Below are positions 5,819 through 32,849 of a stretch of DNA of 39,809 bases, one piece after another. The notes below the pieces were generated by a model. The model was not told the DNA's origin. It was given only the letters and a program-made list of their open reading frames with translations, and searched no databases. Position numbers and translations under genes: made by a program. Where the stretch lies: the NCBI RefSeq assembly GCF_010500815.1, contig NZ_JAAAMG010000031.1:1-39809 (forward strand). Direction: 5' to 3'. Every line of letters begins with the position of its first letter. Position 1 is the first letter of the stretch. This DNA is from Jiella pacifica (lineage in GTDB: Bacteria; Pseudomonadota; Alphaproteobacteria; Rhizobiales; Rhizobiaceae).

Positions 5819-6466
5819 TCAGGAGGGCATGTAGGCGGACATGTCCGCGACGATCCCACCGTTGACGATCGGAACGCAGTCTTCCGGAAAATGCTGAACG
5901 ATGGTTGCCCCCGCGGCCTCGAGGCCGTCGAGGAAAAGTTCGAGTTGTTCCATTGCCGTCGTCGGCAGGTCGTGAAGAACGACCAACGGCCACTCTTCGG
6001 CCGCGCACTGCTCGAGCGCTCGCGGCACCCATCCTTTCGGATTTTCCCAATCCCGCGGAACCACGTTCCAAAGCACGCAGGTGTAGCCGTCGCGACAAAG
6101 CAGATCGACGGCCGTGGCGCTGAGGAGTGCTTCGTCGAGGATCCCGCCGGATCCGAATGGGCGGAACAATCGGTCCGGATGAGACATCTCGCCGATCAGT
6201 TCCTGAGTGCGTCCGATCTCGAGAGCGGGAGCATCCACGTCCAGCGTCACTCCGAGCGGGGCAAGATGATTGAAGGTGTGGTTTCCGATCCAGTGCCCTT
6301 CCCGGAAAGCCCGCTCGACGATCGCGTATCGTTCCGGATCACGGAGCTTGTCTCCGACGACGAAGAAAGTCGTGAGGATCGCACGTCGTGCCAGGATATC
6401 CAGAACTTGTGGCGTGATCTCCGGGTCCGGCCCATTGTCGAAGCTCAACGTGACACGCCACGGCAT
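5819..6466 (-). CDS. polysaccharide deacetylase (NodB homology) family protein, last gene of the ABC operon
   Basis: The 215-residue protein is a single NodB/CE4-type domain. Visible motifs are S-F-D-N-G-P-D (normally T-F-D-D-G-P), G-N-H-T-F-N-H with metal ligands His63 and His67, R-P-F-G-S-G-G, and L-H-D near the C-terminus. The first Asp (10), the usual catalytic base, is kept, but the second Asp, a metal ligand in characterised CE4 enzymes, is Asn11. No signal peptide is seen, so it should act in the cytoplasm on a small molecule rather than on cell wall. It lies 15 bases after the permease gene, so it is probably co-transcribed with the transporter. Hydrolysis of an amide in the imported compound is a plausible role (inference). 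Confidence 0.82.
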   Translation of the reverse strand: MPWRVTLSFDNGPDPEITPQVLDILARRAILTTFFVVGDKLRDPERYAIVERAFREGHWIGNHTFNHLAPLGVTLDVDAPALEIGRTQELIGEMSHPDRLFRPFGSGGILDEALLSATAVDLLCRDGYTCVLWNVVPRDWENPKGWVPRALEQCAAEEWPLVVLHDLPTTAMEQLELFLDGLEAAGATIVQHFPEDCVPIVNGGIVADMSAYMPS

Positions 6467-6481
6467 ACGATTCTCACTTCC

Positions 6482-7291
6482 TCAGGCCACGGCAGATGCT
6501 ACCGACCGTTTGCCGACAGAGCGCCCTGATTGCTGCTGCGCTATTCCGAGACGTCGCTCGAGCACCTGCACCAGGCCATCGAACGCGATCGCGAGCACGA
6601 GTACAAGAACGACAGCTGCATAGACTCGAGGACTGTCGAGCAGCGTCCGGTATTTGGAGATGAGAAAGCCGATGCCGGCCGTCGAGGTCAGCATTTCGGC
6701 CACCACGACGCCGACGATCGCGAGCGCCCCACCCAGCCGAAAGGCTGCCAACACCGTCGGCAAGGTCGCAGGCAGATAGACGTGCCACAGCTTCTGCATC
6801 CGGGTTGCCCCCAGACTGCGCGCGACGATCAGGAACTGGCGATCGACGGTCTGCACCCCCGCCGCCGTCCCGAGCAAGGTGGGAAGAAATCCGTAGACGC
6901 TGGCGAAGATGATCTTCGATTCCGAGCCGATCCCGAACCAGGCCGTGAACAGCGGATAGAGGACGACGAGCGGAACGGCGAAGAGGCCGGAGAACATCGG
7001 AAGCATGATCTGCCGGGCGGAAGCGGCACCGCCGATGGCCAATCCGCAGAGGACCCCGCCGCCGCAGGCAAAGATCATCGCAATGCCCACCTCCTGAAGA
7101 GTCACGAGCATGTGGCGAGCATAGATCGGTGCTTCGACGACCAACATCTGCAAGGTGGTCGTCATCGGCGGCAGAAACAGCGACGGGACGATGCCGGCCC
7201 GCGGCAGGATCTCCCAGATCAAGAGCACGCCGAGGACGATTGCCGTCCTGACGAGGCGTGGCGATGGAAGCGCATGGGAAGCGGTGCTCAT
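6482..7291 (-). CDS. ABC transporter permease, SsuC/TauC-like (second of two)
   Basis: This 269-residue inner-membrane protein has about six hydrophobic segments and the binding-protein-dependent permease signature for ATPase contact (the E-A-A-like loop at A-R-S-L-G-A-T-R-M-Q-K-L-W-H-V-Y-L-P-A). It belongs to the nitrate/sulfonate/taurine permease group. Its ATG overlaps the stop of the ATPase gene by four bases (7288-7291), which implies translational coupling. With the permease at 8100-8882 it probably forms a heterodimeric channel. Confidence 0.9.
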   Translation of the reverse strand: MSTASHALPSPRLVRTAIVLGVLLIWEILPRAGIVPSLFLPPMTTTLQMLVVEAPIYARHMLVTLQEVGIAMIFACGGGVLCGLAIGGAASARQIMLPMFSGLFAVPLVVLYPLFTAWFGIGSESKIIFASVYGFLPTLLGTAAGVQTVDRQFLIVARSLGATRMQKLWHVYLPATLPTVLAAFRLGGALAIVGVVVAEMLTSTAGIGFLISKYRTLLDSPRVYAAVVLVLVLAIAFDGLVQVLERRLGIAQQQSGRSVGKRSVASAVA

Positions 7292-8097
7292 GACCGGATC
7301 CTTTGCCAGATGCGCTCGCGGAGCTCTTCGAAGCGACGGCCCCCCATGACCTCGAAGCTTCGCGGTCGCGGCAGGTCCACCGACACGCGGTCCACGAGTT
7401 TCCCAGGGCGCGAGGTCAGGACGAGCACCTCGTCCGACAGGTGGATCGCCTCGCTCAGCCCGTGGGTGACGAAGATGATCGTCTTGCGGGTCCGCTCCCA
7501 GATCCGCAGCACCTCGTCTCCCATGGTCAGGCGCGTCTGCTCGTCGAGCGCCGCGAAGGGCTCGTCCATCAGAAGGATCGGCGGGTCCTGAACCAGACCT
7601 CTGGCAAGGGCCACGCGCTGCTTCATCCCGCCGGACAGTTCATGGGGATGCTTGTCCGCAAATCCCGCGAGGCCGACGAGGTCGAGCGCCTCCTCCGCCC
7701 GCTCGCGCCTGATCTTGTGATCGACGTGGCGAAGCGACAGGGGAAACTCGACGTTCGACCGGGCTGTCAGCCAGGGATAAAGGCTCGCGTCCTGAAAGAC
7801 GACGCCGATCCGGGTCGGATCCGGCTGGACCAGAGGCCTGCCACCGGCGGTGATCGTCCCCCGTGTCGGCTGCACCAGCCCGGCGATCATCATGAGCAGC
7901 GAAGACTTTCCGCATCCGCTCGGTCCAACGATCGAGATGAACCGGCCCGTTTCCACCCGAAAAGAAATATCCGTCAGGGCTTCGGTCGTCCCTGACGCCG
8001 TTTCATAGACGTGACCGACATTGGTGACTTCGACGGCGCCGCTTTCGTCGGTGGAGAAAGCGGGGGACGGCGAGGAAACGACGGCTTTGAGTCCCAT
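7288..8097 (-). CDS. ABC transporter ATP-binding protein, SsuB/TauB-like
   Basis: This 269-residue ATPase powers the transporter encoded around it. It shows a Walker A G-P-S-G-C-G-K-S-S, Q-loop V-F-Q-D-A-S-L-Y-P-W-L, signature L-S-G-G-M-K-Q-R-V-A-L-A-R, Walker B L-L-M-D-E-P-F-A-A-L-D and switch His in F-V-T-H-G-L. The P-W-L after the Q-loop is typical of the nitrate/sulfonate/taurine class. The start at 8097 lies just after the upstream permease stop (8100), and the frame open further upstream overlaps that gene and is not used. An N-terminal extension of about 20 residues precedes the domain. Confidence 0.93.
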   Translation of the reverse strand: MGLKAVVSSPSPAFSTDESGAVEVTNVGHVYETASGTTEALTDISFRVETGRFISIVGPSGCGKSSLLMMIAGLVQPTRGTITAGGRPLVQPDPTRIGVVFQDASLYPWLTARSNVEFPLSLRHVDHKIRRERAEEALDLVGLAGFADKHPHELSGGMKQRVALARGLVQDPPILLMDEPFAALDEQTRLTMGDEVLRIWERTRKTIIFVTHGLSEAIHLSDEVLVLTSRPGKLVDRVSVDLPRPRSFEVMGGRRFEELRERIWQRIRS

Positions 8098-8099
8098 GA

Positions 8100-8882
8100 C
8101 TATTCCCTCCAATGCTCGCAGCGGCTCTCGAGAGCGCGGATGGTCTCGTTGAACACGATGGCGATCGCCGCGATGACGACGATCGTGGCCATCAGCCGAT
8201 CGAGCTGAAACCCCTGGCCCCACTGCTCGATGACGTTTCCAAGCCCCTCGCGGGACGCGTACATTTCGGCGAGCAGGATGCCGGTGAAATTGAAGATCAT
8301 CGAAACCCGGATCGCTTCGAGAAGGACCGGCGTCATTCCGGGCAGATAGACCCGCAAAACGGTCTGCATTCGCGTCGCGCCGTAGGAGCGGGCGACCACC
8401 AGATGGTCGCGGCGTACGCTTTCGATGGCTGCGAAGGACAGCATCATGACGATGAACAACGTCGAGAACACGCCGAACGCCACCTTTTGATGGAAACTGA
8501 TCCCGAAGGCGAAGATGAAGAGCGGCAGGAAGATCGATTTCGGGATGCTGAATACGAAGAATACGAGCGGCTTGAAGATGTCCGACGCGTATTTGTTCTC
8601 CCCGATCAATATCGCCATGATGAAGCCGACGGGGACGGAGACGAGAAAGGCAACGAGCGTTTCCAGGAGCGTCGTTGCCAGATGTCCGCGAAACCCTGCT
8701 TCGCCGAAAAGCTGAACGATCATCGGCCCCACCACGCTCGGCGGCGGCAGCAGGCGAGGATCAAGGAGACCGACCGTCGGTGCGACCTGCCAGACGGCAA
8801 TGAGCGCAGCGACGAGAGCGGCCCGCGCGACCGGAGCGGGGATACTCCGCGCTCCGGTGTTCCGGACGGTGGCCGTGTTCAT
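8100..8882 (-). CDS. ABC transporter permease, SsuC/TauC-like (first of two)
   Basis: This is a 260-residue inner-membrane permease of the nitrate/sulfonate/taurine group. It has the conserved R-S-Y-G-A-T-R-M-Q-T-V-L-R-V-Y-L-P-G coupling loop and hydrophobic helices throughout. The ATG at 8882 overlaps the stop of the substrate-binding protein gene by four bases (ATGA), so translation is likely coupled. It is clearly different in sequence from the other permease of the operon, which points to a heterodimer. Confidence 0.9.
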   Translation of the reverse strand: MNTATVRNTGARSIPAPVARAALVAALIAVWQVAPTVGLLDPRLLPPPSVVGPMIVQLFGEAGFRGHLATTLLETLVAFLVSVPVGFIMAILIGENKYASDIFKPLVFFVFSIPKSIFLPLFIFAFGISFHQKVAFGVFSTLFIVMMLSFAAIESVRRDHLVVARSYGATRMQTVLRVYLPGMTPVLLEAIRVSMIFNFTGILLAEMYASREGLGNVIEQWGQGFQLDRLMATIVVIAAIAIVFNETIRALESRCEHWRE

Positions 8883-9880
8883 TTTGCCGGCGAGATGACG
8901 GCAGGAGTGAAGGCGTCGGTCCAGATTTCGTCGGCCTGAGGCATGTCTTCGATCCCCGTCAGCTTGGCCAGGTCCATGGCGGTCGCCGCCAGATCCGCGT
9001 TCATCTCGCCGGTGCGGGACAATTTCAGGAAGACGTTCTTCCACTCCATTTCGGCCACTTCCGGCGAAATGTTGTTGAGGTCGGCAATGATCTTGATCGC
9101 CGCGTCCTTGTTGTCCTGCAGATAGGCGACACCCCGATAAAGCGCATTCGTCGCCTTCTGCACGAGTTCCGGCTTTTCCTCGATGAAGGCGCCGGTCGTC
9201 GCCCAACCGGAATTGAGATGCTCCGGCATCGCCGTGCCATAGTCGAGGATCGCGCGCGCATCGCCCTTGGTGAGAACGTCGTAGCTCAAGGGCGAATAGA
9301 CGACCGCCGCGCTGACGTTTTCACTGATGAGGTTCGGCAAGAGGCCGCCGCCGCCGAGCGGGATGCTTTCGAAGGTGATGCTCTGGTCGGACATCGTCCA
9401 GCGGGCCAGCATGTCAGACAAGGAACCGGCCGAGGTGATCCCGACATTCTCGCCCTCGACCTGCTTTGCTTCGGTGATTGGCGAATTGGGGAGCACCATC
9501 AACTGCCACCCGTAGTTTCCCGAACCGAGCATGCCGATGAGCTTGGCGTCGACACCCTTGGCGCGGCTGGATGCGGTGACGCTGCTGGAACTGCCGATGA
9601 TGTCGGCCGCCCCGGCGACCATTGCCGTCACGGCTTCGGCGCCGCTCTGATAGACGGTCAGCTCCGCTTCGATCCCTTCGTCCTTGAAGTAGCCTTGATC
9701 TTCCGCCCTGTGGGCGACGACCGTGGGAAACCAGGTCTTGGTCGCAAGGCCGATACGGACCATGTCTGCAGCGTTCGCAGCCCCGGGTAGCCCGAAGCCG
9801 ACCATCACGCTTCCCACCAATGCGGCGCCGGTCCAAGCCGAGACAATCCGGCCCGAATTCTTGCTCGTTCGCTTTGTCAT
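8879..9880 (-). CDS. ABC transporter periplasmic substrate-binding protein (SsuA/TauA/NMT1-like)
   Basis: This is the first gene of the transporter operon and encodes 333 residues. The signal peptide has a basic start (M-T-K-R-T-S-K), a hydrophobic core and A-N-A at 35-37, giving a predicted cleavage before A-D-M. The mature part is a two-lobed binding protein of the nitrate/sulfonate/taurine/thiamine-precursor group, recognisable from A-E-D-Q-G-Y-F-K-D-E-G-I-E near its start and V-A-G-A-A-D-I-I-G-S. The ligand cannot be deduced from family alone. A strong GGAGGAAAG ribosome binding site precedes the ATG. The predicted IclR operators lie about 200 bases upstream. Confidence 0.92.
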   Translation of the reverse strand: MTKRTSKNSGRIVSAWTGAALVGSVMVGFGLPGAANAADMVRIGLATKTWFPTVVAHRAEDQGYFKDEGIEAELTVYQSGAEAVTAMVAGAADIIGSSSSVTASSRAKGVDAKLIGMLGSGNYGWQLMVLPNSPITEAKQVEGENVGITSAGSLSDMLARWTMSDQSITFESIPLGGGGLLPNLISENVSAAVVYSPLSYDVLTKGDARAILDYGTAMPEHLNSGWATTGAFIEEKPELVQKATNALYRGVAYLQDNKDAAIKIIADLNNISPEVAEMEWKNVFLKLSRTGEMNADLAATAMDLAKLTGIEDMPQADEIWTDAFTPAVISPAK

Positions 9881-10073: not shown

Positions 10074-10109
10074 ATTTCGCAAGAAGAAAATTATTTCGCA
10101 CAACGAAAT
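10074..10109. promoter_or_regulatory. tandem IclR-type operator between ABC operon and IclR gene
   Basis: The perfect inverted repeat ATTTCG-N5-CGAAAT lies at 10093-10109. A second, weaker copy (ATTTCG-N5-AGAAAA) lies at 10074-10090, with centres exactly 19 bp apart. The same tandem arrangement with the same 5-base spacer and 19-bp step occurs in front of the lyase/CoA-transferase operon (13073-13108). The position between divergent genes fits control of both by the IclR protein encoded at 10259. The rest of the 9881-10258 gap shows nothing else recognisable. Confidence 0.75.
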
Positions 10110-10258
10110 TCAGGATGGCTTTCGTCCGGCGCTGGTTTCGGAGTAAGAGCGCCGAAGGCGCCAAGCCAGATCGGAAAGCCGGATCAACGCCCATGATCGC
10201 CTTTATCGAGAGATTTGAACCGAGCCTGTCCCGCGCATGCCGGAGAAAGTGAGCGAGA

Positions 10259-11056
10259 GTGGTTGAGGGCAGAGACGGCAATTTCGTCGAGGGCCTTGCG
10301 CGCGGGCTATCCATCCTCGAGTCGTTCGACCGGACCAACGCATCCATGACGTTGTCTCAGGTCGCGCGACGGACGGGGATGAGCCCCGCCGCGGCTCGGC
10401 GCGGTCTGCATACGCTGGCGAGCCTCGGCTACATTCGCCAGGTCGACCGCCACTTCGTCCTGAGCGCCCGCATCCTGACGCTTGCGTCCGCCTACCTTCA
10501 GGCCGCCGGCAGCGACGACCTGCTCCTGCCGGAACTGCGCCGCATCGTGGGAACCTTCGGCGCCGCCGCGTCGATCGCCGTCCTTCATGGCACCGACATC
10601 CTGTATGTTGCCCACTATTCCGAAGAACGTTCTCGCCGGATCGTCGCTTCGGTCGGCACCCACTATCCGGCCCACGCGACCTCGATGGGCAAGGTCCTGA
10701 TCGCCGCTCTCGCCGCAGAGCAACTCGATGCCTATCTGGAGCACGCGGACTTCCGTCCCCTCACCGACCGAACGATCGACAATGCCGACGACCTGAAACG
10801 GGTCATCGCCGAGTGCCGAAAGAACGGCTATGCGACCGCCGTCGACGAACTCGACTATGGAATCACCTCGCTCGCCGTGCCGATCCGCAACGCGCAGGGC
10901 CGTGTCCTCGCGGCGATCAACTGCTCCGGCTATTCCGGTCGCGTGACGGCCGAGCGCCTCGTCGCGGAGCGACTGGAGGATCTGATCGGGTCGGCCAACC
11001 GGATCGGCCGGGTCCTCGACGCCAACCCGGCGCTGGCGCAGTCATTCCATCTTTGA
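10259..11056 (+). CDS. IclR family transcriptional regulator (PcaR/PcaU-like subgroup)
   Basis: This 265-residue regulator has an N-terminal winged helix (about 8-70: F-V-E-G-L-A-R-G-L-S-I-L-E-S-F, then S-Q-V-A-R-R-T-G-M-S-P-A-A-A-R-R) and a C-terminal IclR effector domain (about 90-255, with H-A-T-S-M-G-K-V-L). The start motif resembles regulators of aromatic and dicarboxylic acid catabolism. GTG 10259 is the chosen start, with GGAGAAAG upstream. It is divergent from the ABC operon, and its C-terminal end faces the CoA-transferase operon. The shared palindromes in both promoters suggest it controls both operons and itself; whether as activator or repressor is unknown. Confidence 0.9.
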   Translation: MVEGRDGNFVEGLARGLSILESFDRTNASMTLSQVARRTGMSPAAARRGLHTLASLGYIRQVDRHFVLSARILTLASAYLQAAGSDDLLLPELRRIVGTFGAAASIAVLHGTDILYVAHYSEERSRRIVASVGTHYPAHATSMGKVLIAALAAEQLDAYLEHADFRPLTDRTIDNADDLKRVIAECRKNGYATAVDELDYGITSLAVPIRNAQGRVLAAINCSGYSGRVTAERLVAERLEDLIGSANRIGRVLDANPALAQSFHL

Positions 11057-11112
11057 GCCTGCCTGGGCAAAGCCCGGACGCTCGGCACGCCGGCGGGCGC
11101 AAGCCTGTCTGC

Positions 11113-12261
11113 TTACGCCGACGCCGCGCGCTCCTGCAACTCCTTGCGGATGGCAGTTCCATGCTCGTCGAGCAGCGGCGGCGGCAGAACATCCGCGTCG
11201 ATTTCGCAGTCGAAGTTGTAGGGAGGCCGGACCGTCGTGAAGACGCCGTTGTCCGGACGATCGACCGAAACCTTGATCCCCAGATGGCGGGCCTGGGGAT
11301 CCTCCAACGCTTCGTCGGCGTCATAGGCGGCCGAGTGCGGCACGCCGTTGGCGGCAAGCCGCTCGCACCATTCGTCCCGGGTTCTCTCCCTGAAGATCGG
11401 CGTCAGTGTCTCGATCAGATCGTCATGATGCGCAATGCGCCCGGTTCGCTCGACAAATCGCGGGTCAGCACCGATCTCGGGGTGGTCCAGCGTGATGACC
11501 AACGAGTCCCAGAACTTTGGCGGCGAAGAAAGATGGAAGGCGATCCAGCGCTCGTCCTTGCATGCGAAAGTGTAGGACTGTGACACTTCCGGACGGCTGA
11601 GAGGCCCCATCACCTGGCCGACGCTGTAGTAATGGGTAAAGCTGTCGAGATTGAAATGCGACATCGCTTCCAGCATCGAGATGTCGAGCCGGCGCCCCGT
11701 TCCTGTCTTCGATCTCTCCAACAGCGCCGCGCAGATACCCGTCGCTGCATACTGACCTGTGACGGCATCCGCGATGGCCGGGCCGATGACGCGCGGACGG
11801 TCGGGCGGTGTCAAAAGCCGGAGATAGCCGGAGGCTGCCTGTGCCACCGTGTCGAAGACCGGTCGATCGCGGTAGGGACCGGACGTACCGAAGCCGGTGA
11901 TTGCGCAGTAGATCAAGTCCGGCTTAAGGGCCCGGAGCGCCGCCTCGCCCGCCCCGATCGTCTCGGCAAAACCGGGACGAAAATTCTGAATGAATACGTC
12001 GGCAGTCGATATCAGCGCATGGAAGACGGCCAGATCCGCCGGGTCGCGGGTGTCGAGCGCGATCGACCGCTTGTTGCGGTTGTAGGTCTGATAGTGGGGC
12101 GAATAGAGCCCGCCCTTGAAGGCTCGGAACGGATCGCCCGTTCCCGGCCTCTCGACCTTGATGACGTCGGCGCCGAGATCGGCGAGGTGCATCGCGGCCG
12201 CCGGTCCGGTGATGTAGGTCCCCATTTCGACGACGCGAAAGGAGCGGAGCATCTTGACCAT
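11113..12261 (-). CDS. CaiB/BaiF type III CoA-transferase
   Basis: This 382-residue protein is a family III CoA-transferase, which moves CoA between carboxylic acids through aspartyl-anhydride and aspartyl-CoA intermediates. Landmarks are the N-terminal R-V-V-E-M-G-T-Y-I-T-G-P, L-A-D-L-G-A-D-V-I-K-V-E, N-R-N-K-R-S-I-A-L-D, and the catalytic Asp137 in R-P-V-F-D-T-V-A-Q-A-A-S-G. It follows the citryl-CoA-lyase-like gene with start and stop touching at 12261, so the two are translationally coupled. The natural reading is that it activates the acid that its partner then cleaves. The acid is not known. Confidence 0.93.
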   Translation of the reverse strand: MVKMLRSFRVVEMGTYITGPAAAMHLADLGADVIKVERPGTGDPFRAFKGGLYSPHYQTYNRNKRSIALDTRDPADLAVFHALISTADVFIQNFRPGFAETIGAGEAALRALKPDLIYCAITGFGTSGPYRDRPVFDTVAQAASGYLRLLTPPDRPRVIGPAIADAVTGQYAATGICAALLERSKTGTGRRLDISMLEAMSHFNLDSFTHYYSVGQVMGPLSRPEVSQSYTFACKDERWIAFHLSSPPKFWDSLVITLDHPEIGADPRFVERTGRIAHHDDLIETLTPIFRERTRDEWCERLAANGVPHSAAYDADEALEDPQARHLGIKVSVDRPDNGVFTTVRPPYNFDCEIDADVLPPPLLDEHGTAIRKELQERAASA

Positions 12262-13064
12262 CAGCGGTCATCCTTCCTGGCAGGCAGTCCGTCATAGCTG
12301 ATCGCCTGATCGGCGTGGTTGGACATGATGAAGCCGATCGAACGCTGGCTTTCTTCGAGAAGATGCGCCACCAGCCCGGCCGTTCGTGCGAGGATGGGGA
12401 CCCCTTTCATCGCACCGCGGGGAAAGCCTGCGTCCAGCATCAGGGCCGGAATCGCGCCGGACACGTTGATCGGCAGGGGACGGTTCATGATGCCCGGCGC
12501 GTGGCGGGCGACCGCCTTGATCATCGCGATATGCTCACCCTCGACGCCCTCTTGCGCGGCCACGGCCAGAAGCCGGTCGGCGCGCGGGTCGCCGCTGCTG
12601 TGCTGCGGATGTCCCAGCCCTGGCACCTTCTGGCGCCTCGCCTTCAACTCCTCGAGGCTTTCGCGCGCGACGGTGTCCGTGTCCTGTCCGCTTTCACGGA
12701 CCCGGTCGACCAGCTCGCCGAGATAGCGACCGGCCGTCTCCGAACTCCCGGCAACGACCGACCCCATCCCGAGGATGCCCGCAGCGATCGCCCCCTGCCA
12801 CGCGTCCGGTCCTGCCGCGAGCGTCATCCGCGCGGCCTGAACGCTCGGCACCAGGCCATGCTCGGCAATGGCGACGAGGCATGCGTCGGTGATGCGACCT
12901 TGGGCCGCGCTCGGCCGATCACCGGTGACCAGAAGCCAAAAATAGTCGGTGAAATTGATCCCACCGATCAGGTCGCGGCACAGATCGTTCCCCCGCACGG
13001 TGACGCTGACGGCGTCGGAGGCCGCGATCGCGGTCAACGCCTGATCTTGCTTGCCGATACGCAA
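12261..13064 (-). CDS. citrate synthase/citryl-CoA lyase-like protein
   Basis: The 267-residue product is a short citrate-synthase-fold protein of the citryl-CoA-lyase-like group. Recognisable parts are T-V-R-G-N-D-L-C-R-D-L-I-G near the start, F-W-L-L-V-T-G-D-R-P-S, the histidine loop P-G-L-G-H-P-Q-H-S-S-G-D-P-R-A and the C-terminal R-T-A-G-L-V-A-H-L-L-E-E. The His-loop is kept, but the region usually reading N-V-D reads N-V-S-G, and the first citrate synthase histidine (G-P-x-H-G-G) appears replaced (G-P-D-A-W-Q-G). That argues for cleavage or a changed chemistry rather than citrate synthesis. I chose TTG 13064, six bases after AAAGGA; no ATG is available except far upstream beyond the operators. 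Confidence 0.85.
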   Translation of the reverse strand: MRIGKQDQALTAIAASDAVSVTVRGNDLCRDLIGGINFTDYFWLLVTGDRPSAAQGRITDACLVAIAEHGLVPSVQAARMTLAAGPDAWQGAIAAGILGMGSVVAGSSETAGRYLGELVDRVRESGQDTDTVARESLEELKARRQKVPGLGHPQHSSGDPRADRLLAVAAQEGVEGEHIAMIKAVARHAPGIMNRPLPINVSGAIPALMLDAGFPRGAMKGVPILARTAGLVAHLLEESQRSIGFIMSNHADQAISYDGLPARKDDR

Positions 13065-13072
13065 ACCCAATC

Positions 13073-13108
13073 CTTTCGATATGCGAAAATAATTTCGTAA
13101 TACGAAAT
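13073..13108. promoter_or_regulatory. tandem IclR-type operator in front of the lyase/CoA-transferase operon
   Basis: ATTTCG-N5-CGAAAT is perfect at 13092-13108. A near-perfect second copy, CTTTCG-N5-CGAAAA, is at 13073-13089, with centres 19 bp apart. The weaker copy lies on the operon side, as in the ABC promoter, and its edge runs into the ribosome binding site of the lyase gene. A protein bound here could block translation initiation or early transcription. Confidence 0.75.
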
Positions 13109-13643
13109 GTACGGATTTTCGATGCGCTTCGTCAAGGGGAACTGCTGCCGACCCGAAATCAGGCACGCTGCTTCGCTGACGCCGTCGTGCACACATGTCA
13201 TTTGCGTTGATGGGGAACGCGCGCAGCTTCGAACGGTGCATCGCGATCACCTAGCAAAGGTTGTGGAGGCGGGTCATTCCTCGGCACACGGGCGCTTTTC
13301 CGCCAGAGCGTCGAACGAGAAGCTTCCGATGCTGGCCGAAGGGCATCGCCAGGCCACCAAGCTGGGGCTCGCCGCGCTCGGGATCGTCGGGGGCCGCCGC
13401 CTTGCTCTTCGGTGGCAGGCGCCACCGGTTGCGGAGACGGGACGCGCCATGACGACGATGGCGAGAGCCTTGTTCTCGTGACGGAGTTTACTGCAACGGC
13501 GGCTCGTCGCGCCTCACCGATCTGATGCCGATTCGCGCACGTCATCCCCTGAACCTCAGCATCGCCGAGTGCACCGATGGCGAGGCGTGAAATCATCGAT
13601 CGCGCTGTCGGGATGACCGCTGGTAGCCGGATCGCCTGTCTTC
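13109..13643. other. no recognisable gene
   Basis: Open frames on both strands lack family motifs and good start signals. The left edge must hold the promoter of the lyase/CoA-transferase operon. I see no repeats or RNA genes. Confidence 0.6.
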
Positions 13644-14531: not shown

Positions 14532-15377
14532 GTGTCGATGATTCGGCTGGTGCCCAAGTTGCTGAAGACCGCGTTGGCCGGCTGGTGGAATGACAGGGCC
14601 TTGAGCCTTGGTGCGGCGATCTCCTTCTACACGCTCTTTTCCATGGCGCCCGTTCTGCTGATCGTCGTTAGCGTGGCGGGGCTGATTTATGGGCGAGAGG
14701 CCGCTCAGGGGGCGATCGTGGAAGAGATCGGCGGGCTTATCGGCACCAAACCCGCTGCCGCCATCGAAGCGATGATCGCCAGTGCGAACAATTTCGGATC
14801 GAGCATCGTGGGGACAGTGGTCGGCTTCACGACGTTCCTGTTTCTCGCGACGGGCGCCCTCGTGGAGCTGCAGGACGACCTGAACATCATCTGGAAGGCG
14901 CCGCCGCCCGAGAAATCCACCATTTTCGTTCTCTTGCGCACCCGGGTGCTCAGCTTGGCGCTGGTGGTGGCGATCAGTTTCGTCCTCCTGGTATCCCTCA
15001 TCCTCGATGCCGGCCTCTCGGCGCTGACAGCTTACTTGCCACGCATCCTGCCTGGATCGGACGCGATCATCTTCACCCTCAACTCCATCTCCGCGCTGGC
15101 CAGCGCGTGCCTCCTCTTCGGGCTCATTTTCAAGGTGCTGCCGGACGTGGACATCGCGTGGCGAGACGTGCTGGTAGGCGCCATTCTCACCGGTTTTCTG
15201 TTCACGCTCGGCAAATTTCTGATCGGCCTCTACATCGGACGAAGCGGCGTCGCATCGAGTTATGGCGCCGCAGGATCGCTCGTCACGATCCTGATCTGGG
15301 TCTATTATTCATCCCAGATCCTGCTCTTCGGCGCCGAATTCACGAAAGCCTTCGCGGATCACCGGGCCCGGCGCTGA
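14532..15377 (+). CDS. YihY/BrkB family inner-membrane protein
   Basis: This 281-residue integral membrane protein belongs to the YihY/virulence factor BrkB family (once mis-called ribonuclease BN). Family marks are A-I-S-F-Y-T-L-F-S-M-A-P near residue 32, W-x-x-P-P-P-E in the middle, V-L-P-D-V-D-I-A-W-R-D-V, and S-S-Y-G-A-A-G-S-L-V-T-I-L-I-W-V-Y-Y-S-S near the end. About six membrane helices are expected. Some family members have been linked to lipid transport across the envelope, but the role here is not shown by sequence. The start could be GTG 14532 or ATG 14538; the difference is two residues. Confidence 0.9.
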   Translation: MSMIRLVPKLLKTALAGWWNDRALSLGAAISFYTLFSMAPVLLIVVSVAGLIYGREAAQGAIVEEIGGLIGTKPAAAIEAMIASANNFGSSIVGTVVGFTTFLFLATGALVELQDDLNIIWKAPPPEKSTIFVLLRTRVLSLALVVAISFVLLVSLILDAGLSALTAYLPRILPGSDAIIFTLNSISALASACLLFGLIFKVLPDVDIAWRDVLVGAILTGFLFTLGKFLIGLYIGRSGVASSYGAAGSLVTILIWVYYSSQILLFGAEFTKAFADHRARR

Positions 15378-31205: not shown

Positions 31206-32423
<1,218 letters not shown>

Positions 32424-32424
<1 letters not shown>

Positions 32425-32849
32425 TGCTCTATCTCGACACGTCGCTGATCGTCGCGGCGCTCTCCAATGAAGCGATGACGCCGCGTGTTCAGGCCTGGCT
32501 GGCGGAGCAGGACCCGGCACAGCTTCTGATCAGCGACTGGACCATCACCGAGATGTCGTCCGCCATGGCGATCAAGCTGCGGACTGGACAGATCAGCCTG
32601 GAGCAGCGCGCGGCAGCGCTCGCCATGTTCAACAAGCTGGTCGCCGAGAGCTTCAGGGTGCTGCCCGTGACGGGTGGGCACTTCCGGGCGGCGGCGAGGT
32701 TTACCGATCAACACACCTTGGGGCTTCGTGCCGGTGACGCTCTGCATCTTGCCGTCGCGTCGGAGCATGGCGCCACTGTGCATACGCTCGACCAGCGGCT
32801 CGCCGAGGCCGGCCCGGTGCTCGGTGTGCCGGCGCAGTTGCTGGCATGA
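32424..32849 (+). CDS. vapC: type II toxin, PIN-domain ribonuclease (VapC)
   Basis: This 141-residue PIN-domain RNase has the acidic metal-binding set Asp5 (L-Y-L-D-T-S), Glu43 (T-I-T-E-M), Asp105 (G-D-A-L-H-L-A) and Asp123 (L-D-Q-R-L). All expected acidic positions are present, so the toxin should be active. VapC toxins typically cut tRNA or rRNA; the target here is unknown. Confidence 0.95.

Follow-up and report, generated by a model that had tools for sequence, protein, structure and literature searches.

The window analysed here, a stretch of 39,809 nucleotides from Jiella pacifica, constitutes contig 25 in its entirety; the draft genome has 5,774,732 bases (5.77 Mb) in 74 contigs. The genes and features considered are as follows.

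5819..6466, minus strand: NodB-like polysaccharide-deacetylase-family enzyme (PF01522; NCBIfam matches below cut-off)
6482..7291, minus strand: ABC permease (profile matches)
7288..8097, minus strand: ABC ATPase (profile matches)
8100..8882, minus strand: ABC permease (start taken at MNTATV, overlapping the stop of the substrate-binding protein gene)
8879..9880, minus strand: NMT1/SsuA-type substrate-binding protein (SBP), first gene of the transporter operon (ATG start)
10074..10109, no strand assigned: putative tandem operator 1, palindromes 10074-10090 (half-sites TTTCG/AGAAA) and 10093-10109 (perfect), 19 bp step
10259..11056, plus strand: IclR-family regulator, the presumed binder (PF09339, 56.5 bits; PF01614, 126.1 bits; both above the gathering score)
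11113..12261, minus strand: family III CoA-transferase (PF02515, 333.9 bits; NCBIfam matches all below cut-off)
12261..13064, minus strand: citryl-CoA-lyase-like protein with a citrate-synthase fold (NF004868, PF00285)
13073..13108, no strand assigned: putative tandem operator 2, palindromes 13073-13089 and 13092-13108, 19 bp step, before the lyase/CoA-transferase operon
13106..13135, minus strand: putative sigma-70-type promoter of the lyase operon, TTGACG at 13135-13130, with a -10 that abuts or overlaps operator 2

The two permease genes and those for the SBP, the ATPase and the NodB-like enzyme are closely packed on the minus strand as a single operon, and operator 1 is placed between this operon and the divergently oriented iclR gene. 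The lyase and CoA-transferase genes form a second operon; comparison with relatives places the probable start of the lyase at a TTG codon (13064-13062), just upstream of which AAAGGA (within 13062-13080), a possible ribosome-binding sequence, overlaps the last operator half-site. The regulator has the helix-turn-helix and the C-terminal effector domain of the IclR family and is thus a member of it, while its score against TIGR02431 (PcaR/PcaU/PobR), 245.2 bits over residues 8-252, is below the cut-off of 284.75 and leaves it outside that subfamily. With regard to the second operon, the lyase scored 311.5 bits against NF004868 (citryl-CoA lyase, PRK06224 group; cut-off 193), a match that would assign it to this group, and the CoA_transf_3 domain of the CoA-transferase identifies it as a family III enzyme. 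COG0372 and COG1804 are the classes of citrate synthase and CaiB, respectively. A second citryl-CoA-lyase-like gene, 34% identical, was seen elsewhere in the genome at G000:C45:264061-264813, with counterparts in the congeners G201 and G204, and a 60% relative of the NodB-like enzyme is encoded near iclR in locus L114. Elsewhere in the window (32182-32849), two small adjacent open frames resemble by eye a Phd-type antitoxin and PIN-domain toxin pair.

A preliminary description of this DNA had reported perfect copies of ATTTCG-N5-CGAAAT at 10093-10109 and 13092-13108, each with a weaker companion exactly 19 bp away. Both coordinates were confirmed, as was the 19-bp step, the companions lying at 10074-10090 and 13073-13089. 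The word "weaker" fits mainly the former, which has one half-site mismatch; by contrast, the companion at 13073 (TTTCG-N5-CGAAA) is perfect in all ten half-site bases and departs from the perfect 17-mer at the outermost bases only. In most relatives the better palindrome is the gene-proximal one, and locus L114 shows the reverse order. Operators of this kind have been described for the IclR family: the main text of Suvorova and Gelfand 2021 (PMC8222616) gives the consensus WTTYCRYW3RYGRAAW for the IclR site subgroup WTT-11-AAW, reports, for 94 orthologous groups, tandem sites with a step of 18-22 nt and, for 32, three-box sites, finds that the commonest position of a site centre is 22 nt ahead of the start of the gene, and states that the family binds DNA as dimers or tetramers. 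By eye, site 13092 fits this consensus at 17/17 positions, site 10093 at 16/17 and both companions at 15/17, and the 19-nt centre step of both arrays lies within the published 18-22 nt. Since both motif type and step match the published class, the arrays appear to be a further example of a known arrangement, in agreement with the site type proposed initially; a small regulon adjoining its regulator is likewise a feature of WTT-11-AAW systems as presented in the same article. COG0372 and COG1804 were not found in its main text, and the orthologous group may be contained in its supplementary regulog tables.

Both arrays are retained in three congeneric genomes. Operator 1 is invariant at 35 of its 36 bases in the alignment of four genomes, the single change falling in a spacer, within an intergenic region that is conserved throughout (mean column identity 90%). 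All 20 half-site bases of operator 2 are also invariant, with changes in the spacers, the linker and the edge; the sequence beyond it soon diverges, and mean column identity in the lyase promoter is 70%. Within the genus, iclR and the lyase gene are jointly present (4 genomes) or absent in 10/10 genomes. Among the nearest named kin, the IclR protein is 98% identical to that of Jiella pelagia, 92% to that of Aurantimonas sp. 22II-16-19i and 91% to that of a Fulvimarina MAG; in the latter (G204), the iclR/lyase locus occurs on contigs 7 and 40 (L018 and L019) with equal identity to the query, as a duplication or an assembly artefact.

A wider comparison used an orthologue clade cut at E < 1e-60, set at a visible gap (next matches at E ~1e-46), which retained 19 of 199 family genomes, that of the window among them (47-54% identity); among 397 genomes of the order, 12 including the window's own had a match at E <= 1e-60 (45-54% identity). 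A matching palindrome was found at 16/18 family loci and 11/11 order loci (27/29 in total; about 45-55% identity). Locus L059 has one-mismatch palindromes only, and at L067 and L068, two of the 18 family loci, no palindrome was found though iclR, lyase and CoA-transferase genes are present. The lyase and CoA-transferase genes were seen together at 17/18 family loci and 10/11 order loci; L058, on a short contig, and L117 are without both. The iclR locus of G383 (L117:337-760) has the palindromes and a -35 but no lyase match, and the space before its DctP gene is too short; the lyase may have been deleted there. Of 33 perfect palindromes from 28 loci, chosen regardless of companions and with kin rows (L016-L019, L054, L065, L105, L106 and L116) excluded, 23 have a companion (at least 7 of 10 half-site bases matched) at exactly 19 bp, or 21/31 when the window's own two are set aside, as compared to 0 to 3 companions at each other offset from 12 to 44. 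This count supersedes an earlier one of 40 hand-listed sites, 30 with a 19-bp companion, which was biased because one-mismatch sites had entered only when a companion was present. At some promoters the companion is reduced to a half-site or absent.

The position of the arrays relative to promoter elements bears on what a bound regulator would do. In the window, the lyase promoter search gave one match against 0.5 expected by chance, and the TTGAC of this promoter is invariant in the four aligned genomes. Among 25 lyase promoters from 17 genera, which are not fully independent, a -35-like TTGAC precedes the gene-proximal palindrome by 46-48 bp in 25/25 (starting at -47 in 21, at -46 in two and at -48 in two), against a background expectation of 0.006 per promoter for a 12-base stretch; on the mirror side of the same 25 promoters no TTGAC was found. 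The set was obtained from 26 listed promoters by removal of L117 (TTGAC at -47), which has no lyase match, and leaves out L018 (duplicate of L019), L058 (contig without a lyase gene), L067 and L068 (no site), L060, L115 and L116 (site precedes LigB) and L059 (FMN-reductase gene first, TTGACA at -40). Next to the distal palindrome, or partly within it, is a -10-like hexamer (e.g., TATAAA in L016 and L017), and in the 23 promoters with a start codon identified the palindrome centre lies 14-46 bases before it. The array thus covers the -10/start region at lyase promoters, which is the position of a repressor. At promoters of amidohydrolase (AmidoH) and LigB genes, where the outer box of the array is mostly lost, TTGAC lies at -42 to -44 in 9/10 cases, the exception being L060; it is also present at the FMN-reductase gene of L059, at both L104 sites and at three L111 sites. 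TTGAC was not found at the usual distance from the sites of the L059 ABC genes, the L113 MetE-like gene, the L060 LigB gene and the second L108 site, nor before iclR in L058 and L060, nor, in either direction, from operator 1 of the window. Because several sites are without it, the repressor geometry is not general.

Taken as a whole, these observations are best explained, with a probability of about 0.82, by binding of the IclR-family protein to both 36-bp arrays as two side-by-side dimers, with repression of the lyase promoter and coupling of uptake to CoA activation and cleavage. Both arrays would be operators of the protein encoded between them, on each of which two dimers would probably sit side by side, as a tetramer; the 19-bp step would place these dimers on approximately the same face of the helix. 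The array before the lyase and CoA-transferase genes covers the -10 and the transcription start and directly follows the conserved -35; there, bound IclR would block RNA polymerase and hence act as a repressor, and a substrate or intermediate of the pathway would release it as inducer. The same protein would bind operator 1, with the transporter operon, iclR or both as candidate targets. The regulon would link uptake, which would fall to the ABC transporter in the window and in relatives mostly to a TRAP transporter, to the activation of a carboxylic acid with CoA and its retro-Claisen cleavage.

The regulator could instead bind the arrays but act mainly as an activator with its inducer bound, in the manner of PobR and PcaU, which are activators according to titles in the reference list of PMC8222616. 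Its best-scoring NCBIfam model is indeed PcaR/PcaU/PobR, three-box sites are reported for PcaU in the same article's text, and no promoter lies at repressor spacing by the transporter/iclR array, where an upstream activating position is conceivable. However, the protein differs from that group in its score below the curated cut-off, in its target genes and in a lyase promoter geometry that suggests repression: with the array downstream of the -35 and on the -10/start region in every lyase promoter of the set, binding should block the polymerase. We thus regard predominant activation as unlikely.

It is considerably less probable that the arrays belong to a different regulator, either an IclR paralogue or a protein of another family, with iclR merely a neighbour. 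The single palindrome WTTTCG-N5-CGAAAW occurs in 168 of 198 family genomes (0 to 10 copies each), mostly genomes without an orthologue, and its count per genome does not separate genomes with and without the regulator among these 198; since single palindromes are non-discriminating, co-occurrence was based on the tandem pattern only. At two or fewer mismatches, this pattern is found in 14/19 orthologue genomes and in 7/179 genomes without one (198 family genomes including the window's own; Fisher p 1.1e-12, uncorrected for kinship). The seven would speak for another regulator, but one exception, G191, is a 79%-complete genome from the same genus as two orthologue holders, and the arrays track and adjoin the orthologue across genera, the motif and spacing are those of the IclR class as given in the main text of PMC8222616, and the joint presence or absence of iclR and lyase within the genus also argues against an unrelated binder. 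The preliminary description had proposed that both promoters share an operator, that binding is in tandem and that the local IclR protein is the binder; comparison supports all three, through congener conservation, the 27/29 loci and the 14/19 versus 7/179 contrast. As a separate observation, an identical palindrome, TTTTCGAGGCTCGAAAA (or its reverse complement), occurs in at least nine family genomes (G148, G060, G086, G165, G051, G143, G144, G172 and G049) and is perhaps the operator of another regulator.

The preliminary description had considered its pattern very unlikely to arise by chance, and had named frequent occurrence of the motif elsewhere in the genome as evidence against it. The perfect 17-mer has two copies in the draft genome, both in the window; one mismatch adds eight further places, and two or fewer mismatches give 199 places in total. 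The reversed-pattern control for the 17-mer gave 25 and, being without dinucleotide matching, was not taken as an estimate of chance. The four-box pattern TTTCG-N6-GAAA-N4-TTTCG-N5-CGAAA finds the two window arrays only at two or fewer mismatches, and at three or fewer these plus one unrelated three-mismatch match (control 0). The motif is thus not frequent elsewhere in the genome, contrary to what would have counted against the proposal. The search for pairs at 19 bp that had been suggested for the full genome and its relatives found arrays that are unique in the genome and recurrent beside orthologues. In favour of mere chance resemblance of the two palindromes, loose matches within the window (three or fewer mismatches) are at chance level, 16 against 14.0 expected; genome-wide uniqueness, congener conservation and 19-bp companions across genera all contradict it, which leaves chance a negligible prospect.

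The gene content of relatives indicates what the regulon may serve. There, the lyase and CoA-transferase are variously accompanied by TRAP genes, a YciI protein, an FMN reductase, an amidohydrolase, a MetE-like protein and a LigB-type dioxygenase with a small partner, L053 having an intradiol dioxygenase instead; in L059, an NMT1-type ABC transporter has its own one-mismatch site at 14965, which supports control of the transporter. G019, G121 and G191 have a second place with paired tandem sites, of which that of G019, the only one of the three scanned with Pfam, contains genes for a metallo-beta-lactamase-fold protein, a TRAP-type transporter and a GCV_T-domain protein. These second sites of G019 (L104:5723 and L104:11747) flank the genes just named on contig 9, which also carries iclR about 390 kb away, and the GCV_T-domain gene adjoins a xanthine-dehydrogenase-like gene. 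The partners and the second locus of G019 suggest that relatives break down an aromatic acid, perhaps an O-methylated one. LigB-type and amidohydrolase proteins had no match in the window's genome and its three congeners, with a positive control in G019, and the substrate may thus differ there. We suggest, tentatively and as a possibility we would not favour, that the relatives' LigB-type extradiol or intradiol dioxygenases, GCV_T-type and MetE-like methyl-transfer enzymes and amidohydrolase reflect an undescribed catabolic route in this alphaproteobacterial order, in which a ring-cleavage product would be CoA-activated by the family III CoA-transferase and split by the citrate-synthase-fold lyase; the window's lineage would have kept only the CoA/lyase end, fitted to a new transporter and the NodB-like hydrolase. 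A search of the open-access literature found no paper on this gene set and no description of its catabolic pathway.

DesA and LigM belong to the GCV_T class. In SYK-6, desA and ligM are under the IclR-type repressor DesX, as described in part of PMC12314914, and the GCV_T-domain gene at a matching site in the relatives' second locus resembles this system, likened by description; by contrast, the window showed no GCV_T-type gene. Two further IclR-family proteins, TtgV and E. coli IclR, differ in motif (TGGAAATNATTTCCA for IclR in the main text of PMC8222616) and in targets. While operator type and 19-bp step were already known for the family, what is new here is a coherent, uncharacterised gene set under predicted control and a conserved TTGAC that places the array on the -10/start region in all lyase promoters compared. 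The locus thus provides a clearly delimited regulon of two promoters for which regulator, operator and mode of action are all predicted. The regulon as compared across relatives joins an amidohydrolase, a MetE-like protein and a ring-cleavage dioxygenase to the lyase, CoA-transferase and transporter, and suggests a catabolic pathway.
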